Positions 1,173-25,424 of a stretch of DNA of 36,543 bases are shown piece by piece; position 1 is the stretch's first letter; the number at the start of each line of letters is the position of its first letter. The translations under genes and the position numbers were made by a program. Below the pieces are notes generated by a model, which saw only the letters and a list, made by a program, of their open reading frames with translations, ran no database searches and was not told the origin of the DNA. This DNA is from Acidithiobacillus sp. GTDB taxonomy: Bacteria; Pseudomonadota; Gammaproteobacteria; Acidithiobacillales; Acidithiobacillaceae. The stretch is taken from the NCBI RefSeq assembly GCF_027322205.1, contig NZ_DAHVHY010000015.1, positions 1 to 36,543 on the forward strand. Direction: 5' to 3'.

Positions 1173-4630
<3,458 letters not shown>

Positions 4631-4631
4631 T

Positions 4632-5729: not shown

Positions 5730-5900
5730 CAGGGTTTGCTCCTTGAATGCCAGGATTGAAAAGGGATCGGTCGGGTTGCTTTATATATATAATTTATATT
5801 TCTTCTTTTAACTACTATAACTATTAGTGGCCCGGTAGCCTGTGGAAAGGTGGGGTAATTCCTTGTCAGTGATAGCATTCTGGGCATTGACAAGTTGTCG

Positions 5901-6000
5901 ACAAGTTGTGGATAAGTCGGTATGCCTGGGGATGAAAAAGAGTCCATTTTTTCATACAGAGTCGGCACAGGGGTTATACAGGGGCTTATCCACAACTTGT
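5901..6000. promoter_or_regulatory. DnaA boxes within a perfect 16-bp inverted repeat, dnaA-dnaN intergenic
   Basis: The sequence ACAAGTTGTGGATAAG at 5901-5916 is repeated exactly in inverse orientation at 5985-6000. Each arm contains a perfect DnaA box: TGTGGATAA at 5907-5915 (box on the minus strand) and TTATCCACA at 5986-5994 (plus strand). GACAAGTTGT also occurs twice as a direct repeat at 5889-5898 and 5900-5909, 11 bp apart, about one helical turn. A weaker box with two mismatches is at 5841-5849. This could be part of the origin or a DnaA-responsive control site for dnaN. Confidence 0.8.
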
Positions 6001-6012
6001 GCGAGTGCCGGA

Positions 6013-7368: not shown

Positions 7369-7397
7369 GCGTAACCTAGTCAGAGGGTCTAAAGGTG

Positions 7398-7456
7398 AAA
7401 AATGCTGTGCCCGCTGCCGCCACCATGTTCTTGTGTCATGTGGTAGCGACAGCGGG
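7398..7456 (-). promoter_or_regulatory. Stable hairpin followed by a T-run in the dnaA leader (possible attenuator)
   Basis: Read on the dnaA strand, 7456-7441 and 7425-7410 form a continuous 16-bp stem with a 15-base loop. Two of the pairs are G-U. On the opposite strand the same positions are C-A mismatches, so the structure is favoured in dnaA mRNA specifically. Five T residues (7402-7398) follow the stem after seven bases, which is a little far for a standard terminator. It lies between any upstream dnaA promoter and the start codon at 7368. Confidence 0.5.
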
Positions 7457-7589
7457 CTCACTCCCCGCAATGGGAAGGGCATTTCATCGTAATTCTCCGT
7501 TGCTGGAGTATATCCAAGTGTGGCGAGGCATGCCAGCGTGTCCGCAGTATGGCGATTTTTCGCCGGAGATAGATTTTCTGCTGGAATAG

Positions 7590-8596: not shown

Positions 8597-8690
8597 GATA
8601 GCCTGGCAATCAGGAGAAGCGGAAATGGGGCGGCTTGCTGCCGCCGCGCTATCCCCTCCGTCTTAGAAGACGGGGTCCCCGCGCAAGCTA
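8597..8690 (+). promoter_or_regulatory. Structured leader element, copy A (nrdD)
   Basis: One of five copies of a pseudoknotted leader. Strand a GATAGC (8597-8602) pairs with a' GCTATC (8648-8653). GGAG is at 8613-8616. Strand b GCGG (8619-8622) pairs with b' CCGC (8679-8682). Hairpin 1 is GGCGGC/GCCGCC (8629-8634 with 8640-8645, loop TTGCT). Hairpin 2 is CCGTCT/AGACGG (8658-8663 with 8668-8673, loop TAGA). Eight bases separate b' from the nrdD ATG at 8691. There is no Shine-Dalgarno motif next to that ATG. Confidence 0.8.
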
Positions 8691-10950: not shown

Positions 10951-11691
10951 ATGGGCGCCAACGTTCTCTATAGAAGGGATATTATATCCGATGACCGATC
11001 GATTTTATTACCATCTATTGCCGGTGTGTCCCAGTTTAGTGCAGTAGATTACCCGGGACACTTGTGTGCCGTAATATATACCCAAGGTTGTCCGTGTCGC
11101 TGTCGTTACTGCCATAATCCAAACCTGCAGCGGGGGGGGCCGGGATCGTCGATTGTGTCATGGTCTATGGTTATGGAGTGGCTGGCGACGCGAAGTGGGT
11201 TACTGGATGCAGTAGCATTTTGTGGTGGCGAACCAACCGTCCATAAATCGTTATTATTGGCGATTAAGCAAGTAAAGGCATTGGGATTTAATGTCGCTCT
11301 GCACACGTCGGGGTTGTATCCACATAATTTTGCGAAGGTGCTCCCACTCTTGGATTGGGTTGGGTTCGATATCAAGTCCCCTTTTGCGCATTATCCTGAT
11401 GTCACCGGCGTCCCCGGAAGCGGTGGCAAGGTAAAAGAATCTCTCGAGCAGATGTTGTCCAGCAATATTTCCTATGAGCTCAGAACAACGGTACATAATG
11501 CCATTTTAAGTAGCGCAGATCTTGTTATGATGGCTCGCGAGTTGCAAATACTTGGTGTATCTAGGTGGGTGTTGCAACGCTTTAACAAGGCAGGATGTGC
11601 AGATTTAGAGTTGGTTGCTAGCCACACCGCAATAGATGGTGATCTGGTTGATAGGTTACGTGTCTATATACCAAATATCTTGGTTAGATAG
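10951..11691 (+). CDS. nrdG: Anaerobic ribonucleotide reductase activating protein (radical SAM)
   Basis: NrdG uses S-adenosylmethionine and a 4Fe-4S cluster to make the glycyl radical on NrdD. The 246-residue protein has the radical SAM motif in GCPCRCRYCHNP, with cluster ligands Cys47, Cys51 and Cys54, an extra Cys49, and the AFCGGEPT glycine-rich SAM-binding segment near residue 90. The N-terminal SQFSAVDYPGH is typical of the NrdG group. The ATG follows the stop of the glycyl-radical gene directly, so the three genes form one operon. Its target would be the separate 68-residue domain, a setting in which the activase meets its substrate as an independent protein. Confidence 0.9.
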   Translation: MGANVLYRRDIISDDRSILLPSIAGVSQFSAVDYPGHLCAVIYTQGCPCRCRYCHNPNLQRGGPGSSIVSWSMVMEWLATRSGLLDAVAFCGGEPTVHKSLLLAIKQVKALGFNVALHTSGLYPHNFAKVLPLLDWVGFDIKSPFAHYPDVTGVPGSGGKVKESLEQMLSSNISYELRTTVHNAILSSADLVMMARELQILGVSRWVLQRFNKAGCADLELVASHTAIDGDLVDRLRVYIPNILVR

Positions 11692-11767: not shown

Positions 11768-13312
11768 TTATTGTACGGGTTCCCGGCGTGCAAGTTTTAT
11801 AACCTTTTCCGCGACGCCAAGGTCTATAGATGATTCGGCACTAAACTCTCCTGAATATGCCGACTGTTCTTGCATGAGATCGTAACAATTGGCGCCAGCG
11901 ATATCCAATAACAAGGCGGGCATGTTTGCTGAGCGAAAAGCATATTCTCGTTTGATGTAAAAATTATTACAACACATTCCTAAGTAGGACTTGGTGCCAC
12001 GTTCCTTGAGTGCTTTTAGTGTAATCTCTAAATGTTCAAAATTGGTTACGGTGGTGACTTGTAATCCTTGCTGTCTGGCTATTTGGTATACCTGACCAAC
12101 ATCGCATTTTCCGCACTGGGAGCAGCCGTCATTATGCCGCCACTTGCACCAAGTGGGCTTGGCGCAGTATGGAACGAGCACCGTGTCAGCCTTTGCTACG
12201 ATATCGAAGGCATCCATTGTTCCATCAGGGTCATGGATCATGAAGGAACTCGCTGCCGATGGCGCTATGGAAAGTTTGGCAGCTATTCTATGTTGTTCGA
12301 AAAGGCGTCGGAGTAATACCATAATATGTTGTGGAGCAAATCTATACAATTCCCATTGATTCTCATAAAATAAATTATCCATTCGGTGCATGATTTCGCC
12401 TTCTGCTGCCCCACGCAGTACGGATTCAATTTTGCGAAACAGGTTGTGTGGCCGAATGTACACATTGCCAGTCAAGTGCAAGGATGATATCCGGATATTG
12501 GCGTCTAACTGTATGCGTCCGTGAAGTATGCCGCCTGGTGTAATGGTAAAGCTGCTATAGGTGATTTCATGAGCATTTTCTGTGAGATCATTGTGATTGC
12601 ATACGTATGTTTGCGATGTGTTATTAACCCATGGGACTTGCATGAGCGTTGGTAAGTTACATGATCGAGCGATAGATTGTGCTAAAGACTCCTTGAGCTG
12701 TAACAAGTCTGCATCGCTCAGGCTCGGCAGCGTGGTGAAGTGACAGGTGGCCGTACGTATGCCTGCTAGTGTTAATTTTTCCTTGGGAACACGTAGCGCG
12801 CGAAGCATCGTATTTATGTCCAATGACCTGTATAGAGTGCCATTTGCGATTAGTATGTTGTCTAACATACCGATATGGACGTTCCCCAGTTTTTGTTCAT
12901 GCGCATAGATATCATTGGGGCGATTGAACTTAATATTTTCATAACCGCTATTATATAGACCACGACAAACCGCCATACAAATGATATCAAGCCATTGTTC
13001 GATACTTAAACGTTGTGCCGGAAGCGTTAAGCTCCAACTAATTTGTTTGGGATATAAATACGATGTACCGCCGCCAGTTATACGCCGAATAATTGGGATG
13101 GACCTAGTCTGACAATATGCTGTCCGCACAGCAAAATTCTTGTCCTCATAGGCACCTAATGCCACGGTTTGTGTGTTTTCGTAAAATCGAAGCAATGGCA
13201 CATGGTCTGTACGTGTAACGATGATTTGCTGCGAATCCAGGACGATGTTATCGGCGCCGTTCCGAAGCCCACTATCCCCCCAAGTTAGCTTGTTCATAAA
13301 TCTTTTTCCCAT
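11768..13312 (-). CDS. Lipoate-protein ligase-like protein fused to a cysteine-rich DUF116 domain
   Basis: The 514-residue product has three parts. Residues about 10-225 resemble the LplA/BPL catalytic fold, with RRITGGGTSY near 76 and RPNDIYAHEQKLGN near 131, including the lysine equivalent to the active-site Lys of LplA. Residues about 254-310 resemble the LplA accessory domain (PGGILHGRIQL). Residues about 375-510 are a DUF116-like domain with a cysteine cluster C..C.WR...GC..CGKC near 383-403 and a later GMCCN, probably an iron-sulfur site. The start at 13312 overlaps the ubiV stop as TGATG, suggesting coupling; an alternative ATG at 13297 would give a more typical LplA N-terminus. Its substrate is unknown. 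Its place behind ubiV suggests work under anaerobic conditions. Confidence 0.8.
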   Translation of the reverse strand: MGKRFMNKLTWGDSGLRNGADNIVLDSQQIIVTRTDHVPLLRFYENTQTVALGAYEDKNFAVRTAYCQTRSIPIIRRITGGGTSYLYPKQISWSLTLPAQRLSIEQWLDIICMAVCRGLYNSGYENIKFNRPNDIYAHEQKLGNVHIGMLDNILIANGTLYRSLDINTMLRALRVPKEKLTLAGIRTATCHFTTLPSLSDADLLQLKESLAQSIARSCNLPTLMQVPWVNNTSQTYVCNHNDLTENAHEITYSSFTITPGGILHGRIQLDANIRISSLHLTGNVYIRPHNLFRKIESVLRGAAEGEIMHRMDNLFYENQWELYRFAPQHIMVLLRRLFEQHRIAAKLSIAPSAASSFMIHDPDGTMDAFDIVAKADTVLVPYCAKPTWCKWRHNDGCSQCGKCDVGQVYQIARQQGLQVTTVTNFEHLEITLKALKERGTKSYLGMCCNNFYIKREYAFRSANMPALLLDIAGANCYDLMQEQSAYSGEFSAESSIDLGVAEKVIKLARREPVQ

Positions 13313-14190
13313 CAGTCGTTGTGCGTCTGCATGAATGCCATGCCTGGCAAGCCATGCCAATAGCCGTTACAAGCAGGCGAGCGCCGCGCATCCTCGGAAA
13401 TAGATGCCCCACCTAAAGTTGCCTGAAATATTTTCACAACGGTATCTGTATCTTTGAGTTGTGGAGATATACGCACTACGTCTATATCCATATTCAACAT
13501 TGCCTCAGTCTCGTGCAGCAGATTGCATGGAACCCCTGATTGAAGCTGGATGCCATTCATGGTGAACAGGCGTTCATGCTCTTGTGTAAACAATGGCCGC
13601 CCTTCTGGATCCCGTATGCAGCGTTGTTCACACTCATCCTTGCCGATATTATCCGCACGGGCAGTGAAGCAGCGTGCCGAAAACGATAGCGGTAAATATC
13701 CATATGCGAAGACTTCAGTTTCCATGGCCTCCGGCCGCGTGTTTTGTAACGTGCCGATGGTCGTGGCGGGTAGTTCCACCGGTGGCACCCATCGAATTGC
13801 CCCAAGCTCGGCTAAGAGCGACAAGGTCTCGTTGTTATAACAGTTTATGTGGGGTCCTGCGACAAAGGGAAACCGCCCCGCCAGTAAATGAACTGCAGAC
13901 ATGTCATTGGCTTCGACAAGGTAATTGGCATTTGCACAAATCTTCTCTAATTGTAGAAGATCCGAGTTGGCTTCCGGGAGGGCTAGCGTGGAAAGCACAA
14001 CCTCCTTGCCGGCGTCAGTGAGTCGCGCCGCAATATTGAGCCAGTCCGCTCTACGCAGGGCGCGTCGTTTTGCGCACACGGTCTCTCCTAGATAAACAAT
14101 GTCTACAGGCCAGGTTGCTGCAGACTGATAAAATTGCTCTATAGTTTCCTTTGACCAGTAGTAGTGAATCGGGCCTAATGAAATCTTCAT
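13312..14190 (-). CDS. ubiV: O2-independent ubiquinone biosynthesis protein UbiV
   Basis: UbiV and UbiU form a 4Fe-4S heterodimer needed for the hydroxylation steps of ubiquinone synthesis without oxygen. This 292-residue peptidase U32-family protein has the UbiV cysteine set: Cys39 in GETVCAKR, and Cys174, Cys187 and Cys191 in RCFTARADNIGKDECEQRC, with the conserved FTMNGIQLQSG segment near 210. It follows ubiU after a 164-base gap that contains leader element B. The ATG at 14190 has no adjacent Shine-Dalgarno motif; the GGAG is in the element, 75 bases upstream. Confidence 0.93.
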   Translation of the reverse strand: MKISLGPIHYYWSKETIEQFYQSAATWPVDIVYLGETVCAKRRALRRADWLNIAARLTDAGKEVVLSTLALPEANSDLLQLEKICANANYLVEANDMSAVHLLAGRFPFVAGPHINCYNNETLSLLAELGAIRWVPPVELPATTIGTLQNTRPEAMETEVFAYGYLPLSFSARCFTARADNIGKDECEQRCIRDPEGRPLFTQEHERLFTMNGIQLQSGVPCNLLHETEAMLNMDIDVVRISPQLKDTDTVVKIFQATLGGASISEDARRSPACNGYWHGLPGMAFMQTHND

Positions 14191-14354: not shown

Positions 14355-15365
14355 TTAATGCCAAGGTCTGTGATATGCCCCGAGAGTATGGGATTGTCCT
14401 TCAGAAAGGCGATCCAGAGCAGATATCCACTGGTTTTTTACGGAATATCGCTCAGGATTCAAAGCGCAAAGATCTATGGCCGCGCGCAAGACGCGTGCGA
14501 CGACGGCGACATAGGCCGGACTTCGCTGGCGTCCTTCCACCTTGATGGCGGCTACATTATGCTGGAATAAATCTGGTAAGATATCCAGGACATTTAGGCT
14601 GGTAGGTTCCTCAATGGCGTAATATGGCTGCGCGTTGGTATAGTAGCGACCCTTGCACAAGGTGGGATAACCAGCCGCCTCATTAAGGCCATGGCGGTCA
14701 ATCAATACGCCATTTAGACGAGACTGGCGGCCCAGGGAGGTCTCCTCCCACCGGACAGACTCGGCTGGTGAACAAACCCCGTTGACATTGGGGGACCGGC
14801 CCGTAATGTAGGATGACAAGGCGCAACGACCTTCTACCATGACGCATAGACTTCCATAACCGAATACTTCGATTTCTACGGGGCTGTTGGCTATGGTATG
14901 CCAAAGTTGTGGTAAGGAGAGAACTCTTGGTAGAACGGCTCTCTGAATGCCAAATCGCTGGTGGTAGAACTCCAGAGCCTGATAAGTGGTGGCAGAGGCT
15001 TGCACGGAAAGATGCAAACGCAGATTGGGATGGTGGCTTGCAGCATAGCGCAGCAATCCAGGGTCCGCCATGATCGCGGCATCTATTCCAAGCATCGCAG
15101 CGCGATCCACTGCGCTGGTCCAGACAGACCAATTGTGTGTCTGTGGGTAGGTGTTGATGGCTAGCAGGACTTTTTTCCCGGCGCGATGCGCATATTCGAT
15201 GCCACGTGCGGCTTCATCCGGACCAAAATTAAGTCCAGGAAAATTGCGCGCGTTAGTATCGTCACGGAAGCCCATATATACAGCATCTGCACCATTATCA
15301 ACAGCAGCTTTCAAGGCAGGTAGTCCGCCTGCGGGGCAAACCAACTCCGGTTTACGGTTATTCAT
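14355..15365 (-). CDS. ubiU: O2-independent ubiquinone biosynthesis protein UbiU
   Basis: UbiU is the partner of UbiV in the oxygen-independent hydroxylation of ubiquinone precursors. The 336-residue U32-family protein starts with the family opening ELVCPAGGLPALKAAVDNGA and has the four cysteines expected for its 4Fe-4S cluster: Cys174, Cys181, Cys198 and Cys237, with spacing close to E. coli UbiU. The ATG at 15365 has a normal AAGGGA six bases upstream, unlike its two neighbours. It lies between ubiT and ubiV, 62 bases after the ubiT stop. Confidence 0.94.
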   Translation of the reverse strand: MNNRKPELVCPAGGLPALKAAVDNGADAVYMGFRDDTNARNFPGLNFGPDEAARGIEYAHRAGKKVLLAINTYPQTHNWSVWTSAVDRAAMLGIDAAIMADPGLLRYAASHHPNLRLHLSVQASATTYQALEFYHQRFGIQRAVLPRVLSLPQLWHTIANSPVEIEVFGYGSLCVMVEGRCALSSYITGRSPNVNGVCSPAESVRWEETSLGRQSRLNGVLIDRHGLNEAAGYPTLCKGRYYTNAQPYYAIEEPTSLNVLDILPDLFQHNVAAIKVEGRQRSPAYVAVVARVLRAAIDLCALNPERYSVKNQWISALDRLSEGQSHTLGAYHRPWH

Positions 15366-15427: not shown

Positions 15428-15964
15428 TCAAGGCTGAAGGGCGCGATCCAGCAAGTCATGCAAGCGCCTATCGGCATGCGTTCTGCGGATGGTGCGATCT
15501 ATGGTTTGCCTTATTCGGGGACCAAATGGGGCCGGTAGCCCGTTGATCGGGGTGAGCCAATCAAAGTCTATCGAATCCAAAATATTCTTCAGGTGGAGTC
15601 CGATGGATGTTTCTCCTTCCAGTACCAGACGGCGCGCGAAGAAGAGGGTGTCCGGATCTTCGAGGCGTAGTGCGAGTCGGCAAAAATCCTTGGCGGTTCC
15701 TGCAATGCGCAAATCGACTGATCCAGCCAAGGCTAGAGCAATCCTCCCTCGCCTTATTGTTAAGCGAAAGGATTTTCCGAGGTCGGACACCTCAACCGCT
15801 ATGCGCCGTCCCTCTATCTGATAGAGATCCGATTGATGCTTCGCCAGAATCCAGTTGGCTGTGCCCACGAAGAGGGCCGTGAGCACTGGATCCATAAAAA
15901 TGGTTGTTGTGGCGATAAGCGGATGCCTTAGCGCGCGTCCTTGATGCATGAATTTTGTCGTCAT
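15428..15964 (-). CDS. ubiT: O2-independent ubiquinone biosynthesis accessory factor UbiT (SCP2 domain)
   Basis: UbiT has a sterol carrier protein 2 fold that binds quinone precursors and is needed with UbiU/UbiV for anaerobic ubiquinone synthesis. The protein has the SCP2-like core (about residues 45-150) with the strongly conserved FFARRLVLEGETSIGLHLKN and LDSIDFDW. The frame is open to 16021, but the start at 15964 (MTTKFMHQGR) is preferred because it is where leader element C ends and because 178 residues matches UbiT length (E. coli 174). Translation from 16021 would run through the element's pairing strands. ubiT, ubiU and ubiV run in order on the minus strand. Confidence 0.88.
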   Translation of the reverse strand: MTTKFMHQGRALRHPLIATTTIFMDPVLTALFVGTANWILAKHQSDLYQIEGRRIAVEVSDLGKSFRLTIRRGRIALALAGSVDLRIAGTAKDFCRLALRLEDPDTLFFARRLVLEGETSIGLHLKNILDSIDFDWLTPINGLPAPFGPRIRQTIDRTIRRTHADRRLHDLLDRALQP

Positions 15965-16074
15965 TAGTTTTTTGTGGGAAACCCCGCCCGACACTTTCGC
16001 CGGGGAGGAATAGCGCGGCATGTGTAAGATTGCCCCTTCCCACCTCTCCTTATCAGTCAGTTGTTACGCGCTAT
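15965..16074 (-). promoter_or_regulatory. Structured leader element, copy C (ubiT)
   Basis: Given in ubiT-strand order. Strand a ATAGCGC (16074-16068) pairs perfectly with a' GCGCTAT (16016-16010). GGAG is at 16049-16046. Strand b GTGGGAA (16043-16037) pairs perfectly with b' TTCCCAC (15980-15974). Hairpin 1 is GGCA/TGCC with a ten-base loop. Hairpin 2 is CCCGGC/GTCGGG around 16004-15987 with loop GAAAGT. Nine bases separate b' from the ATG at 15964. The G-U-compatible change GCGGGA to GTGGGA is matched by TCCCGC to TCCCAC, a compensatory pair. Confidence 0.8.
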
Positions 16075-16123: not shown

Positions 16124-16195
16124 TAGATCATAGCAAAACATAAACAGATACGGAAGTACTATTAGCGTTCGCGCGGCGCAAGCGAGGTGGTTGAC

Positions 16196-17377
16196 ATGGA
16201 TTTCCCATATTTAAAGGTCAAAGGGCGGTCTCTGCTCCCAGTGATACAGGGAGGTATGGGTATTGGTGTTTCGGCACACAGTTTAGCCGGTGCCGTGGCG
16301 GCGGAAGGGGCTGTCGGAACCATTGCAAGCGTGGAGCTACGTCGTTTACATGAGGATTTGATGCGACCCTTGCGGCGCCTGAGAGATCCTGCAGCCTCGG
16401 CCAAGGCAAACCTGATCGCGCTAGATCGCGAGATCCAGGAAGCGCGCCGGATCGCAGGAAAAGAGGGCTTTATCGCCGTTAATGTCATGCATGCCATTTC
16501 CGGCTATCGAGAGCATGTGCTTCAAGCTATCAAGAGTGGGGTTAACGCGGTGATCGTGGGTGCGGGTCTGCCTATGGATTTACCTACGCTGGCGGCGGAG
16601 TTTCCCAAGGTCGCACTGATCCCGATCCTTTCTGAAACTCGCGGTGTTCAGGTGGTACTGCGCCGTTGGATGCGCCAGAAACGTCTTCCAGACGCCGTTG
16701 TTATCGAGAATCCCCAATTCGCGGGCGGGCACTTGGGAGCCACCAGGCTGGAGGAAGTTTCAGATTCCAAGTACGATTTTGCCAATGTCCTGCCCGCGAT
16801 CCGCAAACTGTTTGAAGAATTGGGTCTGAAACCTGATCAGATTCCGCTTGTCGCCGCTGGAGGGATCTCTTCTCTTCAGAAAATGCGGGAGATATTTTCC
16901 CTCGGCGGGAGCGGGGTTCAGTTGGGTACCCCGTTCGCTGTAACCACCGAAGGCGATGCGCATATCAATTTTAAGCGTGTTCTGGCCGATGCGACGCCTA
17001 AAGATCTTGTGACATTTATGAGTTCGGCGGGCCTGCCCGCGCGCGCGGTGCTTACCCCTTGGTTGCGCCGTTACTTGGGGCGCGAGGAAAAACTGCGTGC
17101 TTGTGCGAGCCAAGACCGTTCTCTGTGCCCAAGTCAGACGGAGTGCTTGCTACATTGCGGGTTCAAGGATGGCAATTCGTCTTCCGGACAGTTCTGCATT
17201 GAGGCCCAGTTGGCTGCTGCGCAACGCGGTGATGTGCAGCATGGGCTATTTTTTCGAGGCGCCGGACAGCTACCCTTCGACCAACAAATTAGAAGTGTTC
17301 GCGATCTTATTGCGACGCTGCTATATGAAGCCACATGGACAACTGCAGAGGATTGTATGTCAGCGATGGCAGTATGA
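16196..17377 (+). CDS. Nitronate monooxygenase / enoyl reductase-like FMN flavoprotein
   Basis: The 393-residue protein is a TIM-barrel FMN enzyme of the 2-nitropropane dioxygenase family. Visible motifs are VIQGGMGIGVS near residue 16, NPQFAGGHLGATR with the family histidine, VAAGGISS and GSGVQLGTPFA for phosphate binding. Members oxidise nitronates or reduce enoyl groups; the true substrate is not predictable here. The C-terminal third contains six Cys, including CPSQTECLLHCGF, unusual for the simplest family members. ATG at 16196 has GCGAGG eight bases upstream; GTG at 16187 is an alternative start. It is divergent from the ubiTUV genes, a neighbourhood that suggests a role in anaerobic growth. 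Confidence 0.8.
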   Translation: MDFPYLKVKGRSLLPVIQGGMGIGVSAHSLAGAVAAEGAVGTIASVELRRLHEDLMRPLRRLRDPAASAKANLIALDREIQEARRIAGKEGFIAVNVMHAISGYREHVLQAIKSGVNAVIVGAGLPMDLPTLAAEFPKVALIPILSETRGVQVVLRRWMRQKRLPDAVVIENPQFAGGHLGATRLEEVSDSKYDFANVLPAIRKLFEELGLKPDQIPLVAAGGISSLQKMREIFSLGGSGVQLGTPFAVTTEGDAHINFKRVLADATPKDLVTFMSSAGLPARAVLTPWLRRYLGREEKLRACASQDRSLCPSQTECLLHCGFKDGNSSSGQFCIEAQLAAAQRGDVQHGLFFRGAGQLPFDQQIRSVRDLIATLLYEATWTTAEDCMSAMAV

Positions 17378-17684: not shown

Positions 17685-19226
17685 ATGAAAATAAAGTCGG
17701 AGTGGAAGAATAAAGTCCGTTGGGCTACATGCGCTACGCTCATGGTCGGGGCGACGGCATTCTCAGTCGATGCGCTGGCTTTGCCGTCATTCGCTCGGCA
17801 GACCGGATGGTCTTGCGCAACCTGTCATACCTCCTACCCCCAGCTCACCCCGATGGGCCGCATGTTCAAGTTGCTTGGATTTACAACGACAAATCTGCAG
17901 CAACAGCAGAAAGTTGAGGCAAAATTCGGGAAAAGTGTCGGTTTGCTCATATCGAGGGTTTCACAGTTTTCTATCTTTTTGCAGACCTCTGCTACTAACG
18001 TAGGGGGAGGACAGGCAGTTTTTGGTGGTACGAATCTTGGTGCTTCACCGAATAACAACGTTCAATTCCCACAACAGGTTAGCTTATTTTATGCCGGTGA
18101 AATAACACCACATATTGGTTCGTTCTTGCATCTCACGTATTCCGGCGGAGGCAGTGGCACCGGTGGGGGCGGGTTTAGTTTCGATGACTCCAGCATCGTG
18201 TGGGCCCATCCATGGAAGATTGGTGCCAATGATCTTCTGGTCACCGGCGTAGACGTCAACAATACACCTACTTCCATGGACCTGTGGAATACCGTTCCAG
18301 ACTGGCAGGCGCCATTTTTTAGCTCTGATTATTCGTCCTGGGGCCACGTACCTCTGCCGTTCATTGAAGGCTCAGCTGGTGCTGGGTATCCATTGGCTGG
18401 TCTTGGTGTTTATGGGGCGGATATTTTCGGACCAAACAAAGCAAACTGGCTGTACGCGGATGCTGATGTCTATACGAATGGTCAAGGAATCCAAACTAAC
18501 CCGGTTGGTGGTTTTGCGGCATTTAACTCAGGACCCGCCGGTAGGCTTTCCGGGGCTGCGCCTTACGTCCGCCTGGCCTATCAGCATGATTGGGGCAAAT
18601 GGAATTGGGAGATTGGGGCCTATGGTATGTGGTCCAGCGTATATGATGCGTCGATACAGCCTGAATATACCATCGTGGATGTGAATGGAAATCCGCAGAC
18701 AATACCAACCGGAAATGCCTATAACTATAGCGGTGGCCCCATTGATACGTTCGATGATTATGACCTAGATACACAGCTTCAATGGCTTGACATCAACGAC
18801 AACAATAACGTCACGGTCCGTGCTGCATGGGTACACGAGCAGCAGCGGTTTGGGGGAGTAGGTGGAACTCTTCCAGCAGGCGCCCAATCCGCAAACTCGA
18901 CATCTCAGGCCGGCAGCTTGAATTTTTTCAACCTAAATGCAACCTACTGGTATCATGATCGGTACGGCATCCAAGGTGGATACCGGGATGTGTGGGGATC
19001 AAACAACCCCGGTCTCTACGGCACCACATACACGAATAATGGATCGCCTGATACAAGCAATGAATGGGTAGAACTTTCCTATCTCCCTTGGTGGAACACG
19101 CGTTTTTCACTGCGGTACAATATTTATAATAAGTTCAACGGAGTAGCTTCTGCAGCATCAAATAATCTCAATTATGGTGCCTCCGCATATAATACTCTAG
19201 AGCTACTGGCCTGGATTTCTTACTAG
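17685..19226 (+). CDS. Cyc2-like outer-membrane fused cytochrome-porin
   Basis: The 513-residue protein has a signal peptide ending near VDALA (residue 32), then directly one haem-binding CATCH at residues 44-48 inside SFARQTGWSCATCHTSYPQL, and then about 440 residues rich in Gly, Asn, Tyr, Trp and Ser with alternating hydrophobic pattern, ending in ISY. This is the plan of Cyc2, the outer-membrane cytochrome-porin that takes electrons from ferrous iron at the cell surface. Length is close to Cyc2 of A. ferrooxidans (485). AAGGAG is placed well before the ATG. The next gene is Cyc1-like, as in the rus operon, but no coxBACD or rusticyanin gene follows here. Family membership is well supported; the electron donor is inferred. 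Confidence 0.85.
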   Translation: MKIKSEWKNKVRWATCATLMVGATAFSVDALALPSFARQTGWSCATCHTSYPQLTPMGRMFKLLGFTTTNLQQQQKVEAKFGKSVGLLISRVSQFSIFLQTSATNVGGGQAVFGGTNLGASPNNNVQFPQQVSLFYAGEITPHIGSFLHLTYSGGGSGTGGGGFSFDDSSIVWAHPWKIGANDLLVTGVDVNNTPTSMDLWNTVPDWQAPFFSSDYSSWGHVPLPFIEGSAGAGYPLAGLGVYGADIFGPNKANWLYADADVYTNGQGIQTNPVGGFAAFNSGPAGRLSGAAPYVRLAYQHDWGKWNWEIGAYGMWSSVYDASIQPEYTIVDVNGNPQTIPTGNAYNYSGGPIDTFDDYDLDTQLQWLDINDNNNVTVRAAWVHEQQRFGGVGGTLPAGAQSANSTSQAGSLNFFNLNATYWYHDRYGIQGGYRDVWGSNNPGLYGTTYTNNGSPDTSNEWVELSYLPWWNTRFSLRYNIYNKFNGVASAASNNLNYGASAYNTLELLAWISY

Positions 19227-19239
19227 GAGGGTGTACACA

Positions 19240-19887
19240 ATGAAACCAATAATGAGTCTGAAAAAGTGGGCATCTCCTGCACAAAACAAGACCGTTGTTG
19301 TTGGTGGTGCTGTGGTGGCCATTGCGTTACTCGCATCGTGTCCAACGCTGGCGAGCGTCCCCCAGTCGGTCCAACAGTCATGCATGGTCTGCCACGGGCA
19401 GACCGGAGAGAACACCATCTATCCAATTGTCCCTCGGCTTAACGGTCAGTTGGTGCAATATCTCGCATGGCAACTTAAGCAGTTCAAGAAGCACACGCGT
19501 GCGGATCAAAATGCGCAGATTTATATGTGGCCAGTTGCTCAAGCCTTGGATCAGCAGGAAATACAGTCGCTTGCGAAGTATTATGCGGCGCAGTCGCCTA
19601 TGCACAGTGCGTCCTCGCCGCGTCCAGGAGTGTCTGCCGGCAAACAAATATTTCTGCAAGGCATCGCTGCAAAGGGCATTCCAGCATGTATGGCATGCCA
19701 TACCGTAAACGCGACCGGTATGGGGACATTCCCACGATTGGCGGGGCAGCGATATGAATATCTGGTTCAGCAATTGGAATATATGCATGCTGGAAGCAGG
19801 GCGAATCCCATTATGCAGCCTATAGCAGAGAAGCTAACGATCCGGCAAATGCGGGATGTGGCGGCTTATCTGTCCGGTCTGCATTGA
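19240..19887 (+). CDS. Cyc1-like dihaem cytochrome c4
   Basis: The 215-residue periplasmic or membrane-anchored protein has a hydrophobic N-terminal signal (about residues 18-38) and two c-type haem sites, CMVCH at 48-52 and CMACH at 150-154, each followed by the PRLAGQ-type segment of c4 cytochromes. The stretches YPIVPRL, SRADQN-like TRADQN and IYMWPVAQALD are those of Cyc1 from the A. ferrooxidans rus operon, which passes electrons from rusticyanin to the aa3 oxidase. AGGAGG lies nine bases before the ATG, 13 bases after the cyc2-like stop, so the two genes are co-transcribed. The usual partner gene order cyc2-cyc1 is preserved. Confidence 0.88.
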   Translation: MKPIMSLKKWASPAQNKTVVVGGAVVAIALLASCPTLASVPQSVQQSCMVCHGQTGENTIYPIVPRLNGQLVQYLAWQLKQFKKHTRADQNAQIYMWPVAQALDQQEIQSLAKYYAAQSPMHSASSPRPGVSAGKQIFLQGIAAKGIPACMACHTVNATGMGTFPRLAGQRYEYLVQQLEYMHAGSRANPIMQPIAEKLTIRQMRDVAAYLSGLH

Positions 19888-19912
19888 GATGTGGTGGGAT
19901 TTAATGGTGGTT

Positions 19913-19929
19913 GCGACGCTGTCGCTTTT
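19913..19929 (+). terminator. Possible weak terminator after the cyc1-like gene
   Basis: GCGAC-GCT-GTCGC (19913-19925) forms a short five-pair stem followed by TTTTA. It is small, so termination may be partial and leave read-through into cycA. Confidence 0.3.
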
Positions 19930-20170
19930 AGTGAATAGGGCTCGCAATCATGGTCTTAAGGGGAATTATGGCATTAATTCCTTGCAATCGATAAAGCGGA
20001 TGTATGGATTCGCTAGAAGTCTGAATGGTGCGTCGGCAGGTAGTGTCTATATAACGTAGTCACACTGGCGTATATTCAACATGGGGTTTTGTTTATAACC
20101 GGCCTATAACTATCGAGAGTCTGCAACAGGAACTTGGTGGTTGCTAGCCTTATCAACCAAGGTGCCACAT

Positions 20171-20884
20171 ATGCTACAAAAAAACCAGTTTTTATCAGCT
20201 ATTCCCGCGCTAACGATAGCAATGGCCATGACGTCAGTAGCCTATGGATCCACTATCGCTAAAACGGCCTCGGCGGCTCCTCCTGCGGCGGCCACCGCCA
20301 GTGTGATGAGCGTGGCGGCTGCCACCCCGTCTGTTACTTCAAGCGGTATTCCCACGGTGGTGCAGAACTCCTGCATGGCTTGCCATGGCCTGCAGGGTGT
20401 GGCGGCAGATGGAGGTATGTTCCCCAATTTGGCAGGACAATGGAAGCCCTACATCCTGCGGCAACTCGACCATTACAAAACGCACACCCGCGCGGATCCG
20501 CAATCATCCATTATGTGGGGCATGGTGGCCCCGTTGACGTCCGCGCAGATACAGCAGGTCGCCGCATACTTTTCTTCTCAGAAGCCCGCATCGGGACATG
20601 TTTATGATCCCAAACTCGTCGCCGAAGGCAAAAAACTGTACTTCGGAGGGTTGCCCAAGGCACACATGCCAGCGTGCATGGCCTGCCATGGCGCAACGCT
20701 GGCCGGTCTGCCCCCGTTTTTCCCGATGTTGGCGGGGCAAAAGCGCACTTATGTGATTAACCAACTGACCTATTTCAAGTCAGGACAGCGGGTTGCCACC
20801 CATAAGGGCATTATGCAATACGTGGCTTCCAGGCTGAATCAAAAGCAAATCACCGCGCTGGCCGCCTATATAAGGTCACGGTGA
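20171..20884 (+). CDS. cycA: Dihaem cytochrome c4 (CycA-type) of the bc1 cluster
   Basis: The 237-residue protein has a signal peptide, an Ala-rich linker (about residues 28-56) and two haem sites, CMACHG at 68-73 and CMACHG at 169-174, with the c4 repeats FPNLAGQ and FPMLAGQ. In acidithiobacilli CycA cytochromes are encoded first in the pet operons and carry electrons to or from the bc1 complex. The ATG at 20171 has AAGGTG six bases upstream; the frame is open 30 bases further but without a signal. The stop overlaps the sdrA start. A 283-base gap separates it from the cyc1-like gene, so a separate promoter is likely, though none was clear. Confidence 0.9.
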   Translation: MLQKNQFLSAIPALTIAMAMTSVAYGSTIAKTASAAPPAAATASVMSVAAATPSVTSSGIPTVVQNSCMACHGLQGVAADGGMFPNLAGQWKPYILRQLDHYKTHTRADPQSSIMWGMVAPLTSAQIQQVAAYFSSQKPASGHVYDPKLVAEGKKLYFGGLPKAHMPACMACHGATLAGLPPFFPMLAGQKRTYVINQLTYFKSGQRVATHKGIMQYVASRLNQKQITALAAYIRSR

Positions 20885-21699
20885 GCCTCATGACTGAAAA
20901 TGATTATACCAAACCGAAAGGTGACGGTGCTCTGGAAGGGAAAACGATACTTGTCACCGGTGCGGGAGACGGCATTGGTAAGGCGGTATCCATTGAATAT
21001 GCCCGACAGGGCGCTACGGTCATTTTGTTGGGAAAGACGAAGCGTAATCTGGAGGGGGTTTACGATGAAATCACCGACTATGGGTACGTGGAGCCAGCCA
21101 TTCTTGTGGTGGATCTCGCCGAACCGGCAGCCGATGCATTTAAAACCATAGGTGCGGCCATTTCCAGCGAATTTAAACAGCTGCATGGCATAGTGCACAA
21201 TGCGGCGGAACTCGGGATGTTGACGCCGCTGGAAATCTATGAAGATGTTCTGTGGGATCATGTATTTCAGGTCAACGTAAAGTCTCCACTGCTCATAACG
21301 CAACAGTGCCTTCCGTTATTAAAAGAGGCTACGTACGCCTCTATCATTTTCACAACGGATGAATCTGGCGTAAAGCCCAAAGGCTATTGGGGTGCCTACG
21401 GGGTGAGCAAGGCCGCTATTTTGCATATGGCGCGCATGTGGGCGATAGAGTATGCCAACACGAATATTCGGGTGAATATCGTAGATCCTGGGCCTTGTAG
21501 AACAGGGCTTCGCCTGCTGACGCATCCCGGCATGCCGATGAAGCGATATACGCCTCCTGAAGCAATTACCAGTATCTATATGAGATTAATGGATTGTGAT
21601 GTGTTGGGTCATAACGGCGAGTTGTTTTATGCCCAAGATTTTATCAATCCCGATTTGGATGACAGAACTGAAAGGGATCTGGCAACTTCTACCATGTAA
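20881..21699 (+). CDS. sdrA: Short-chain dehydrogenase/reductase of the pet cluster
   Basis: SdrA is a Rossmann-fold oxidoreductase always found in acidithiobacillus pet operons; its substrate is not known. The 272-residue protein has the cofactor motif TGAGDGIG near residue 27, HNAAE, and the catalytic YGVSK with upstream Ser/Thr in IIFTTDESG. The GTG at 20881 overlaps the cycA stop (GTGA) and has AAGG five bases upstream; an ATG at 20890 is the alternative. No signal peptide is seen, so it is cytoplasmic, unlike its neighbours. This makes a role in electron transfer itself unlikely and one in quinone or cofactor chemistry more likely. Confidence 0.88.
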   Translation: MSLMTENDYTKPKGDGALEGKTILVTGAGDGIGKAVSIEYARQGATVILLGKTKRNLEGVYDEITDYGYVEPAILVVDLAEPAADAFKTIGAAISSEFKQLHGIVHNAAELGMLTPLEIYEDVLWDHVFQVNVKSPLLITQQCLPLLKEATYASIIFTTDESGVKPKGYWGAYGVSKAAILHMARMWAIEYANTNIRVNIVDPGPCRTGLRLLTHPGMPMKRYTPPEAITSIYMRLMDCDVLGHNGELFYAQDFINPDLDDRTERDLATSTM

Positions 21700-21729
21700 T
21701 CCATCAAATAGCACATAGGAATCAATATC

Positions 21730-22350
21730 ATGTCAGACGAAACGCAAGACAACAAGCATGCTCCGAATGTAACGCGTCGCCGCTTCCTCACGGCGCTGGT
21801 GACGGTATCTGGTGCAGCGGTGGCGGGCACTATCGTAGTACCAATGGTCAAGTCGCTGGATCCAACAGCCGCCGCCGCTGCCTTAGCCACCACGACCATT
21901 GATCTGAATCCCATCGAACCAGGGATGCAAATGGTGGCGCTGTGGCAGGAGAAGCCCGTTATTGTGGTAAACAGAACCCCAGAAATGCTGGCCACACTGG
22001 ATGAGACCGCGCAGAAGGGCCTACTGAAGGATCCCAACTGCAATGTGCCGCAGCAGCCGCCCTATTGCAAAAACAAGTATAGGTCACGGGTGCCGGAATG
22101 GTATGTCGGCATCAAAATATGCAACCACCTGTGTTGCATCCCGCACTACCGGCCCAAAAAAGCCAGCGTCGCTCCGTGGTGGCTCGGCGGATTCCATTGC
22201 CCTTGCCATGGATCGATGTACGATCTTTCTGCACGCGTAATCAAAGGGTCACCCGCCCCTCACAATATGGCGGTTCCGGAATATGACATCGACATGGAAA
22301 AGAAAAGCGTCGTGGTAACCAAAATGTATCCGCTCGCGCATTTGTGCTGA
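21730..22350 (+). CDS. petA: Rieske iron-sulfur subunit of cytochrome bc1
   Basis: PetA takes electrons from quinol at the Qo site and passes them to cytochrome c1. The 206-residue protein has an N-terminal twin-arginine anchor (RRRFLTALVTVSG, residues 16-28) with one membrane helix and a C-terminal Rieske domain. The 2Fe-2S ligands are visible in CNHLCC (131-136) and CPCHGS (157-162). The usual first box is CTHLGC; here Gly is replaced by Cys, giving adjacent Cys135 and Cys136. Additional Cys residues occur at 104, 113 and the C-terminal residue 206. It is followed 27 bases later by petB. Confidence 0.95.
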   Translation: MSDETQDNKHAPNVTRRRFLTALVTVSGAAVAGTIVVPMVKSLDPTAAAAALATTTIDLNPIEPGMQMVALWQEKPVIVVNRTPEMLATLDETAQKGLLKDPNCNVPQQPPYCKNKYRSRVPEWYVGIKICNHLCCIPHYRPKKASVAPWWLGGFHCPCHGSMYDLSARVIKGSPAPHNMAVPEYDIDMEKKSVVVTKMYPLAHLC

Positions 22351-22377
22351 GTGTGGTAGCCGAGAAAGGAGGCTGAT

Positions 22378-23592
22378 ATGAGTTTCAAAGAGTGGTTTGT
22401 CAAACGTTCGCCATTGCCGGAGATGTGGCGGGAGCACATGGCTGAATACTACGCGCCCAAAAATTTCAACATCTTTTATTACGCAGGGTCCCTGCTGTTA
22501 CTGATGGTAGTGCTGCAGTTCCTGTCAGGATTTTTGGTTATGGCACACTACATACCAACCGCCAGGGATGCATACGACTCCGTATATGGAATCATGTATG
22601 ACGTGCATTATGGTTGGCTTATGCAGTATATGCATGTCGACGGCGTATCCCTGATATTCATACTGCTGTACATACATATGGCGCGGGGCATGCTTTACGG
22701 CTCCTACCGATCACCGCGAGAGATCGTCTGGATCATTGGCTATACGACCTATCTGGCTTTTATGGCGGAGGCATTTTTCGGATATATACTGCCTTATTCA
22801 AACCTGTCCTATTGGGCTGGGACGGTGATCACCTCATTATTCAAGTCCATTCCATTCATCGGGCATTGGGTAACCACCCTGGTACGTGGTGGCGCGGGAA
22901 TGAGTGGTGATACGTTGGGCCGATTCACGGCATTGCATGTGACCGTGGTGTTTCTGGTCATTGTCGGACTGATCGTATTTCACATCCTTTATCTGCACAA
23001 GGTCGGTTCCAACAATCCCGACGGCATTGAAATCAAGGCCAACAAAGGACCCGACGGACATCCGGTGGATGGTATTCCCTTTCATCCCTACTATTCCGTG
23101 AAGGATCTGTTCGGATTCGGGGTATGGCTGACTATCTTCGCCGCAATTATTTTCTATGCCCCGACATTTCATCATATTTTCCTGGAGCGGACTATGTCCA
23201 CGCCAGCGAACCCGTTGAAAAGTCTGCCGGATGTTACCCCGCCATGGTATTTATCGCCATTTTACGCCATGTTACGGGCGATACCGAATAAAAATGGTGG
23301 CATCATATTGATGGTGGTGGCGGTATTGTTCCCATTCGTGCTTCCATGGCTTGATAAAAATCCGGTGAAATCGACACGTTACCGCCCGATTACCCGTATT
23401 ATGCTCATTATCTTTTTTATCAACTTCTTCGTGCTTGCCTATCTTGGAGAGCAGCCTCCGCTGCCTAAATATTTTTTCCCGGAGCGGTTGGGGGCGGCGA
23501 TTTATGTGGCATTTTTCGTTTTATTGCCACTGGTGAGCAAGTTTGAGCCGACCCGTACGCCACCGGCGCGAGTCCGTTTCCGTGCCCACTGA
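22378..23592 (+). CDS. petB: Cytochrome b subunit of cytochrome bc1
   Basis: PetB is the membrane core of the bc1 complex and holds two b haems and both quinone sites. The 404-residue protein has about eight hydrophobic helices. Haem ligand histidines appear in the helix containing YMHVDGVSLIFILLYIHMAR and in the helix RFTALHVTVV...FHILYLHKVGSNNP. The Qo loop motif reads PPWY where most bc1 proteins have PEWY. That glutamate takes part in quinol proton transfer, so the change may matter in an enzyme proposed to run in reverse in iron-grown acidophiles. An AAGGAGG motif precedes the ATG. Confidence 0.95.
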   Translation: MSFKEWFVKRSPLPEMWREHMAEYYAPKNFNIFYYAGSLLLLMVVLQFLSGFLVMAHYIPTARDAYDSVYGIMYDVHYGWLMQYMHVDGVSLIFILLYIHMARGMLYGSYRSPREIVWIIGYTTYLAFMAEAFFGYILPYSNLSYWAGTVITSLFKSIPFIGHWVTTLVRGGAGMSGDTLGRFTALHVTVVFLVIVGLIVFHILYLHKVGSNNPDGIEIKANKGPDGHPVDGIPFHPYYSVKDLFGFGVWLTIFAAIIFYAPTFHHIFLERTMSTPANPLKSLPDVTPPWYLSPFYAMLRAIPNKNGGIILMVVAVLFPFVLPWLDKNPVKSTRYRPITRIMLIIFFINFFVLAYLGEQPPLPKYFFPERLGAAIYVAFFVLLPLVSKFEPTRTPPARVRFRAH

Positions 23593-23614
23593 TATTGGGC
23601 AGAGAGGAGGAGTT

Positions 23615-24316
23615 ATGAAAAAGTATGTTGTATGGGCGGGCATGACCCTGGGGCTGCTTGCTAATGCATCAGGGGCCTTTGCTGCAGATAACGGACCCAA
23701 GATGTTGACGCCGCATTACACCTATAATGCAAAGACCATTATTGCGGGTGCAAAGCTGTTCGCAACCGATTGTATGGCTTGTCATTCCATCAAATTCATG
23801 CGTTACGAGTTTCTGACGCAAGATCTGGGCATGTCTAAGGCCGATGTGCATAAATATATCATGTTGCCGACTGGTTCCGAATTTAAGGGAACGATGGTAT
23901 CGGCGATGCCAATCAATATGGCGCACAAATGGTTTGGCCTTCCCCCGCCGGATTTGAGCCAAATGGTTCGGTATAAGAGTCAGGATTGGGTATATACCTA
24001 CTTGCTGTCATTTTATCAGGATCCCAAGCGTCCATCCGGTTGGAATAACCATGTATTTCCTAACGTGGCGATGCCCGATGTGCTGGCGCCGTACGGTGGG
24101 ATTGTGAATGAGCATGGGAAGGTGCTCCGTGCGGGTGACGAGTCTCCTCAAAAGTTCAAGGAGCAAGTGACGGATATTGTCGCTTTTTTAAGGTTTGTGT
24201 CCGATCCGTCCGTCGTGCAACGAGAGGACGATGGGCCTTGGGTACTCGGCTTGCTGGTGCTGTTTACTATATTTGCTTATTTCCTCAAAAAGGAGTACTG
24301 GAAAGACGTGAAATAA
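23615..24316 (+). CDS. petC: Cytochrome c1 subunit of cytochrome bc1
   Basis: PetC accepts electrons from the Rieske protein and passes them to soluble carriers. The 233-residue protein has a signal peptide to about residue 24, the c1-type haem site CMACHSIKFMRY with Cys53, Cys56 and His57, and a C-terminal membrane anchor (about residues 206-226) ending in lysines. The ATG at 23615 has AGGAGG four bases upstream; the frame is open to 23543 but this would overlap petB. petA, petB and petC are in the standard order. Confidence 0.95.
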   Translation: MKKYVVWAGMTLGLLANASGAFAADNGPKMLTPHYTYNAKTIIAGAKLFATDCMACHSIKFMRYEFLTQDLGMSKADVHKYIMLPTGSEFKGTMVSAMPINMAHKWFGLPPPDLSQMVRYKSQDWVYTYLLSFYQDPKRPSGWNNHVFPNVAMPDVLAPYGGIVNEHGKVLRAGDESPQKFKEQVTDIVAFLRFVSDPSVVQREDDGPWVLGLLVLFTIFAYFLKKEYWKDVK

Positions 24317-24405
24317 GTTGCCATCATTCAGGTCTATGACGCGGTGTAAATCTGCGGATTATAGGAAACAAGAGTGTTAAACCGTCAATCTAAAGGAGTA
24401 ATATC

Positions 24406-24726
24406 ATGAGTAAGGAAGAGAACGAAATTGAGAAGACCACGCCGGAGAGCCTGAGCCGCCGGGATGTCTTGAAAGGTCTTGCGATAACGGCTGGTGTGGT
24501 GGCGGTTGGGGCCGTGACCGGAGTAAATCCGATCGGCGCGGCCCATGCGGCTGGAAAGTGTCCAGGAACCACACCGAAGGCTGCCCTGCAATATCGGCCA
24601 CATCCCAACGGTAAAGACCATTGTGCGGTTTGTGCAAATTTTATCGCACCGCACTGCTGCAAAGTCGTGGCTGGATCCGTGGTGCCTGATGGGTACTGCT
24701 TGGCATTTATACCTAAACCGGCATAA
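24406..24726 (+). CDS. hip: High-potential iron-sulfur protein (HiPIP, Iro/Hip type)
   Basis: HiPIPs are small periplasmic 4Fe-4S electron carriers. The 106-residue precursor has a twin-arginine signal (LSRRDVLKGLA, residues 16-26, cleavage near AHA 48) and the HiPIP core CAVCANFIAPHCCKVVAG plus GYC, with cluster ligands Cys73, Cys76, Cys85 and Cys98. It is close to the Iro protein of A. ferrooxidans in motif, with Cys84 replacing Ser and an extra Cys52 near the mature N-terminus; these two could form a disulfide. It has AAAGGAG before the ATG and lies 89 bases after petC; a terminator follows. This fits the pet-hip or pet-iro arrangement of acidithiobacilli. Confidence 0.92.
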   Translation: MSKEENEIEKTTPESLSRRDVLKGLAITAGVVAVGAVTGVNPIGAAHAAGKCPGTTPKAALQYRPHPNGKDHCAVCANFIAPHCCKVVAGSVVPDGYCLAFIPKPA

Positions 24727-24887: not shown

Positions 24888-24989
24888 GGTAGCTCTACAA
24901 AATAAGGAGGTGCGGGGGAGGGCAGGTATTTTGCAATGCCTGCGGGCTACCCAGCCTTGGCGCAGACGCCAGGGACTCCGCGTAATATC
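24888..24989 (+). promoter_or_regulatory. Structured leader element, copy E (monohaem cytochrome)
   Basis: Strand a GGTAGC (24888-24893) pairs with a' GCTACC (24946-24951), a compensatory change from GATAGC/GCTATC in copies A, B and D. GGAG is at 24906-24909. Strand b GCGGGG (24912-24917) pairs with b' CTCCGC (24976-24981), with one G-U. Hairpin 1 is GCAGG/CCTGC (24922-24926 with 24939-24943). Hairpin 2 is CCTTGGCG/CGCCAGGG (24955-24962 with 24967-24974, loop CAGA). Eight bases remain before the ATG at 24990. Confidence 0.8.
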
Positions 24990-25424
24990 ATGTCGTTGCG
25001 AAAAATATCATGTACTGTGGTAGCGATGGCTGTGTGCGCATTGACTTTTACAGCCCCGGCTTTGGCGGCTGAGAAGCCCATGCAAGCGGCTATTCATGAG
25101 GGGGGCCAGTTATTCGCCGCAGCCTCCTTGGGGGTTAACGGTGAGAGCTGTATGACGTGCCACCGCGGTGGCGGACGCGTGGAAGGCATGTTACCAACAG
25201 GCAAAAAGATTCCAAGTCTTATCGGGGCTGCGGCCAGCTTTCCCCGCTATAATGAGCGCGCTGGGAGGGTGATAACACTGGGGATGCAAATCAACTCCTG
25301 CATAACGAATGGCCTGCACGGGATGCCGCTATCCTACGATGGCCCAAAGATGGTGGCGCTTATTAGTTACCTGACCGACCTGTCGCAGGGCAAACCCATT
25401 GATCTCCAAGGCGTGAAGCGGTGA
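24990..25424 (+). CDS. Periplasmic monohaem cytochrome c
   Basis: The 144-residue protein has a signal peptide ending ALA at residue 26 and one haem site CMTCH at residues 54-58. The later segment INSCITNGLHGMPLSYDG, with a possible Met ligand and another Cys, resembles the class I domains of TsdA/SoxX-type cytochromes, but the similarity is too slight to assign a substrate. The frame is open from 24936; the start at 24990 is chosen because it gives a clean signal peptide and lies eight bases after leader element E. There is no Shine-Dalgarno motif directly before it. It follows the hip terminator and precedes the DsbG-like gene by 46 bases. Confidence 0.85.
   Translation: MSLRKISCTVVAMAVCALTFTAPALAAEKPMQAAIHEGGQLFAAASLGVNGESCMTCHRGGGRVEGMLPTGKKIPSLIGAAASFPRYNERAGRVITLGMQINSCITNGLHGMPLSYDGPKMVALISYLTDLSQGKPIDLQGVKR

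Follow-up and report, generated by a model that had tools for sequence, protein, structure and literature searches.

A recombinant cyc2 joined to cyc1B and a petII-type bc1 operon in Acidithiobacillus: a probable unit of anaerobic ferric-iron respiration

Background

Two bc1 operons, petI and petII, have been described in A. ferrooxidans together with their gene contents (PMC2754497). petI is the operon tied to uphill electron flow in iron oxidation, and petII is tied to sulfur oxidation in the forward direction and is raised on sulfur (PMC2754497). Later proteomics linked petII to anaerobic Fe(III) respiration; indeed, petII, Hip, Cyc1B and Cyc2B all increase when A. ferrooxidans respires Fe(III) anaerobically (PMC7735108, PMC8790237). 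A review of 2022 distinguished two Fe(III) chains, one through bc1-I, CycA1, rusticyanin and Cyc2, the other via bc1-II, CycA2 and Hip with a reductase listed as unknown at its end, and considered organisms without rus proteins as likely unable to reduce iron enzymatically (PMC8790237). Besides its rus operon, A. ferrooxidans has a Cyc2B-Cyc1B pair (Cyc2B ACK78881; Norris et al. 2018, as cited in PMC7735108 and PMC10715153), which stands alone at ~1.23 Mb, away from petII.

Here we analyse a stretch of 36,543 nucleotides (hereafter the window) that makes up one contig, NZ_DAHVHY010000015.1, of an Acidithiobacillus sp. draft genome (GCF_027322205.1; 2.28 Mb, 150 contigs, 90% complete). The draft is placed in the genus by its relationship to records named A. 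ferrianus, A. ferriphilus, A. ferrivorans and A. ferruginosus. In this window, a cyc2-cyc1 pair stands ahead of a petII-type operon.

Results and discussion

Gene content of the locus

Checking of the open reading frames gave eight intact genes in the order cyc2, cyc1, cycA, sdrA, petA, petB, petC and hip (Table 1). In profile searches, family models backed cyc1, cycA, sdrA, the Rieske protein, cytochrome b, cytochrome c1 and HiPIP/Iro, the last of which matches solved HiPIPs weakly. The intact frames and family models bear out the preliminary description, in which the pair directly precedes a full pet-hip cluster with neither rusticyanin nor oxidase genes between; within the cluster we found none. 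Cyc2 was named by no Pfam or NCBIfam model in these searches; the protein aligns end to end with known Cyc2 and has a signal-like N-terminus and a single CATCH motif at 44-48. An AlphaFold model of its barrel, computed from 11 sequences, reached a pLDDT of 27 only and was unusable. The start of cycA is most likely ATG 20171, which is preceded by AAGGTG and conserved across petII loci, and petC2 likely starts at ATG 23615.

Table 1. Features of the window, in order of position
Feature	Position	Strand	Basis or remark
nrdD, anaerobic ribonucleotide reductase	8691..10724	+	NCBIfam TIGR02487/NF006126 over cut-off
nrdG-type activase	10951..11691	+	TIGR02495 over cut-off
ubiV, O2-independent ubiquinone synthesis	13312..14190	-	NF047965 over cut-off
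ubiU, O2-independent ubiquinone synthesis	14355..15365	-	NF047963 over cut-off
ubiT, accessory factor of the O2-independent ubiquinone pathway	15428..16021	-	NF047962 over cut-off
Nitronate-monooxygenase-like flavoprotein, conserved left neighbour	16187..17377	+	PF03060; equal position in petII loci of the genus
cyc2, outer-membrane porin-cytochrome, mosaic	17685..19226	+	Codons 1 to ~59 Cyc2B type, remainder rus (Cyc2A) type
Recombination crossover inside cyc2	17862..17879	+	Last B-type site codon 59, first A-type site codon 66
cyc1B, periplasmic di-heme c4-type cytochrome	19231..19887	+	PF00034; clusters with Cyc1B
Conserved block upstream of cycA, candidate petII promoter/regulatory site	20045..20114	+	Alignment of 10 petII loci
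cycA2, di-heme cytochrome c4	20171..20884	+	Family model; ORF open from TTG 20141
sdrA2, short-chain dehydrogenase	20881..21699	+	PF00106
petA2, Rieske protein	21730..22350	+	PF00355, PF10399
petB2, cytochrome b, petII type	22378..23592	+	PF00033/PF00032
petC2, cytochrome c1	23543..24316	+	PF02167; listed ORF begins at TTG
hip/iro, high-potential iron-sulfur protein with TAT signal	24406..24726	+	NF041615 over cut-off
SoxA/TsdA-like mono-heme cytochrome c, gene after hip	24936..25424	+	PF21342; retained in some petII loci

Type of bc1 complex and neighbouring genes

PetB is 92-94% identical to one of the two bc1 sets of iron-metabolising species and 64-65% identical to the other. In A. ferrooxidans, gene content identifies these sets as petII, which includes hip and adjoins ubiVUT/nrdDG (93% identity), and petI, which is followed by resBC (65%). 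PetB also groups with petII in the tree, and the cycA-sdrA-petABC-hip order is that of the A. ferrooxidans petII operon (AFE_2727-2732, PMC2754497), which has the same nrdDG-lplA-ubiVUT surroundings and, unlike the window, no cyc2-cyc1 ahead of it. The bc1 operon of the window is consequently petII and not petI, and petI was found neither in the 90% complete genome nor in the 85% complete sister genome YP4.bin20. The reading of the locus as "downhill and uphill iron-oxidation genes" side by side fails, because its bc1 set is petII; moreover, neither aa3 nor rusticyanin was detectable in the genome.

The left flank carries a lipoate-ligase-like gene beside nrdD, the nrdG-type activase and ubiVUT, and the right flank the SoxA/TsdA-like cytochrome, a thioredoxin-fold protein, resB and resC. 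That UbiTUV make ubiquinone without oxygen is reported as established for the family (PMC6747719, PMC10470549). A. ferrooxidans, A. ferridurans, A. ferruginosus and A. ferrianus have the string of nrdDG, lipoate-ligase-like gene and ubiVUT adjoining petII, and A. ferrivorans and G006 have some of it there; in A. ferriphilus, nrdDG is retained and a UbiU match is absent. Most Acidithiobacillus species that metabolise iron have kept nrdDG and ubiTUV next to petII.

A recombinant Cyc2

On the evidence of its sequence, cyc2 is a recombinant, found in two independent MAGs, that joins the signal peptide and 5' end of a Cyc2B gene to a rus-type body. We used 265 nucleotide sites at which, within the genus, cyc2 genes of the rus type and those of the B type share no base. 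Codons 1-59 hold 44 B against 3 A sites and the later codons 24 B against 180 A (Fisher p 6e-28), the crossover falling just past a near-identical heme region. At the amino acid level, the 105 fixed differences fit a single breakpoint with 4 exceptions, and none of 2000 shuffles did as well. The Cyc2 phylogeny is likewise mosaic: the body is nested in the rus (Cyc2A) clade as sister to the A. ferruginosus rus Cyc2 (support 100/99 and 98/94), and the 5' end sides with the B type. Since the tree of the 5' end is short and long branches were flagged in it, the claim of a hybrid rests on the site counts. The full-length protein does not fall in the Cyc2B clade, only codons 1-59 being of B type. 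From the crossover and the trees, the predicted mature protein would be almost wholly of rus type, made from a gene with the signal peptide and position of a Cyc2B. Most of the window Cyc2 is of the oxidation-operon type, a feature that sits against a ferric-reducing reading of the locus.

Misassembly as the origin of the hybrid was ruled out, because the independent YP4.bin20 has the same hybrid cyc2 with 35 nucleotide differences; these differences also indicate that the hybrid is not recent. As the source of the rus-type body, a rus operon must once have existed in an ancestor or donor. Cyc1 groups with Cyc1B rather than with rus Cyc1, with moderate support (93/93 for the B side, 87/91 for the Acidithiobacillus B group). 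Compared with the A. ferrooxidans Cyc2B-Cyc1B pair, the window has the same two-gene order, the same type of Cyc2 signal peptide and a Cyc1 of the same subfamily (76-77% identity), and differs in lying ahead of petII and in the rus type of its Cyc2 body. Compared with the A. ferrooxidans rus operon, the Cyc2 body is 77-84% identical over the aligned length, whereas Cyc1 is only 51-59% identical to rus Cyc1 and the cluster is without rusticyanin, cup, coxBACD and cta genes.

Distribution and history of the joined arrangement

Five genomes, belonging to two genera, have the pair immediately ahead of cycA: that of the window, its sister YP4.bin20 (97-100% protein identity), WY1.bin85 (JAKAFG010000006), and YF4.bin20 and clean1615, two genomes of another genus of the family. 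As the order recurs in this way, it is neither chance nor an assembly oddity. The last three loci share the order cyc2-cyc1-cycA-sdrA-petAB(C-hip) and differ from the window in their non-recombinant Cyc2, of B or B-like type; WY1.bin85 also has a rus operon.

The petII loci of A. ferrooxidans and A. ferruginosus are without the B-type pair, which these species carry elsewhere. Between the left neighbour and cycA, A. ferrivorans DNA matches the window up to 17514 and resumes at 19753, leaving the last ~135 bases of cyc1 (83% over 447 bases), and A. ferriphilus shows a cleaner deletion of the pair. Given these relics, the simplest history is that Cyc2/Cyc1B and petII were joined in the ancestor and that the pair was later lost or moved in several of the named species. 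The components are known and the pathway is of a known kind; the new part is the arrangement itself, of which no description was found in the literature searched (Norris et al. 2018 may mention the linkage). The recombinant Cyc2 also appears to be new.

Region upstream of cycA

The ~280-base gap between cyc1 and cycA contains a block conserved in ten petII loci, including loci without cyc2-cyc1; it holds a TATATAA-like element as well as a ATAACCGGCC-like region that is invariant. This block suggests that petII has its own promoter and may start a transcript separate from that of cyc2-cyc1. A sigma-70 scan did not pick it out; neither that scan nor one for terminators exceeded the level of shuffled sequence, and FNR-like sites showed no excess (22 found, 18 expected by chance).

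Iron-oxidation components in the rest of the genome

The genome has one Cyc2, that of the cluster, which speaks against the option of a second Cyc2 system raised in the preliminary description. When the rest of the 90% complete draft was searched for rus and cox genes, none of rus type was detected, and no second, complete rus operon carrying a canonical Cyc2 turned up. Neither a protein search nor two family models found rusticyanin in the genome, and none was found in the sister; matches of at least 90% were obtained in seven members of the genus. For rus-type CoxA, only 32-34% matches were found in the genome and its sister, against 86-100% in the same seven members of the genus. The three heme-copper oxidase loci of the genome have a quinol-oxidase layout, with subunits II that are without the CuA cysteines present in rus CoxB; bo3-type quinol oxidases are present, and no high-potential acceptor oxidase (aa3, cbb3) was found in the genome. 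A search for COX15-CtaA, chosen as a heme A marker, missed even those species whose aa3 operon is proven and is hence uninformative. The sister has a group 1 hydrogenase, which was not found in the 90% complete genome.

Proposed role and alternative explanations

We propose that the cluster is probably an anaerobic ferric-iron respiration unit, a function deduced from its genes, and that the organism most likely uses iron by respiring the ferric form, not by oxidising the ferrous form. UbiTUV would keep up ubiquinol without oxygen, and bc1 complex II would oxidise it in its normal, energy-conserving direction. Electrons would then pass via CycA2 and/or HiPIP to the periplasmic di-heme Cyc1B and on to the porin-cytochrome Cyc2, whose rus-type body would reduce Fe(III). 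Gene linkage and studies of related organisms are our basis for the proposed path between bc1-II and Cyc2; Cyc2 as reductase is the simplest reading because the window encodes a bc1-II/CycA2/Hip chain joined to Cyc1B and Cyc2. The potentials of CycA, Cyc1 and Cyc2 fall between those of quinol and Fe(III) at acid pH, so that the passage from quinol to Fe(III) is downhill. Values given in work on A. ferrooxidans are +430 and +510 mV for CycA, +385 and +485 mV for Cyc1 and +560 mV for Cyc2 (PMC7735108). This reading is drawn from a bc1 complex of petII type only, two sister genomes with no rusticyanin or rus-type CoxA found, subunits II without CuA, the adjacent nrdDG and ubiTUV, the published rise of petII, Hip, Cyc1B and Cyc2B in A. 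ferrooxidans respiring Fe(III), and the joining of Cyc2/Cyc1B to petII in five genomes with relics in A. ferrivorans and A. ferriphilus. The earlier idea of a different electron route without rusticyanin, perhaps reversed in ferric respiration, is supported. Against the ferric-respiration reading, loss of rus expression abolished Fe(III) reduction in A. ferridurans (Bonnefoy 2018, as cited in PMC7735108), so rus products may be needed besides the B pair. The genome sequence of the type strain of that species, however, shows cyc2B as frameshifted by a one-base deletion in a run of G, which could explain this result unless it is a sequencing error. The candidate promoter of petII, the want of an excess of FNR-like sites and the hydrogenase found in the sister but not in this genome also count against the reading.

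The main alternative is that an ordinary rus operon dropped out of the draft assembly and that the cluster is a Cyc2/Cyc1B/petII side pathway, as in WY1.bin85, which has both loci. In its favour, completeness is only 90% and 85% in the two drafts, a rus operon must be the source of the rus-type Cyc2 body, and mobile elements, which bin poorly, often flank rus loci (PMC10654088). A rus operon missed by both drafts is possible, since mobile or variable regions bin worse than average; yet rusticyanin, CoxA and petI are absent from two independent sister drafts, the chance that both lack one locus being ~0.015 by completeness alone, if completeness is random, and we regard this explanation as unlikely.

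An unusual Fe(II) oxidation, in which Cyc2 takes electrons that run through Cyc1B/CycA/HiPIP and uphill through bc1-II to quinone, for use by quinol oxidases or NADH dehydrogenase, would agree with a Cyc2 body of the type known for Fe(II) oxidation and with the bo3-type oxidases. We nevertheless judge it very improbable, as an Fe(II)-quinone-bo3 route costs energy at bc1 for little gain, a net downhill reaction needs a high-potential acceptor where no aa3 or cbb3 was found, and petII is linked to the forward direction (PMC2754497). About as improbable is aerobic sulfur oxidation, in which bc1-II would feed a terminal oxidase through CycA2/HiPIP and cyc2-cyc1 would be mere passengers: A. ferrooxidans does raise petII on sulfur (PMC2754497), but a CuA oxidase that could take up the electrons was not found, cyc2-cyc1 are open, 97-100% conserved in the sister and kept in a second genus, and the neighbours are anaerobic genes.

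As for the history of a lineage respiring ferric iron, aerobic iron oxidation (rus, petI, aa3) may have disappeared from it while a dedicated Fe(III) chain stayed, an oxidation-type Cyc2 body having recombined into the reduction operon to run in reverse; we give this scenario a little less than an even chance. If it is true, the partners of Cyc2, and not the porin-cytochrome, would decide in which direction Cyc2 works.

Conclusions

The linkage of Cyc2/Cyc1B to petII in two genera, beside genes that make quinone without O2, points to a candidate for the reductase by which acidophiles would deliver electrons from the bc1-II/CycA2/Hip route to Fe(III). A clean test of this candidate would be offered by genomes in which no rus operon is detected, and the natural A/B hybrid Cyc2 may serve as a ready-made experiment on what fixes the direction of electron flow across the outer membrane.

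Chromosomal context

The cyc2-cyc1-cycA-sdrA-petABC-hip cluster is probably located near the chromosome origin, since gyrB, recF, dnaN and dnaA are found about 10 kb away (Table). dnaA also adjoins nrdD in A. ferriphilus. The nrdDG-ubiVUT string of anaerobic genes to the left of the cluster includes, as a conserved member, a gene encoding a lipoate-ligase-like/DUF116 fusion.

Features located in the window and in stretches from relatives
Stretch	Positions	Feature
Window	1173-7482	gyrB, recF, dnaN, dnaA (names from sequence inspection)
Window	11771-13360	DUF116 domain fused to lipoate-ligase-like domain
A. ferridurans JCM 18981 (L048, genome G011)	8676-10108	cyc2B, split by a 1-base deletion within a G run
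A. ferrivorans DSM 22755 (L112)	10347-10478	cyc1B 3' relic, between flavoprotein gene and cycA2

Iron-oxidation and anaerobic genes in relatives

Because its cyc2B is split, the B pathway (the Cyc2B/Cyc1B pair) may be broken in A. ferridurans JCM 18981, the type strain, as read from its sequence; the single-base deletion could also be a sequencing error. In A. ferrivorans DSM 22755, a relic of cyc1B was located. A. ferrianus carries two copies of the rus operon on two contigs (L041 and L042); Cyc2, CoxA and rusticyanin each score the same in both. Finally, petII is retained in G006 (L113), a genus member with no Cyc2 match at all. In this genome, ubiU contains two in-frame stops and ubiV is matched only partially, which suggests that anaerobic ubiquinone synthesis may be decaying.
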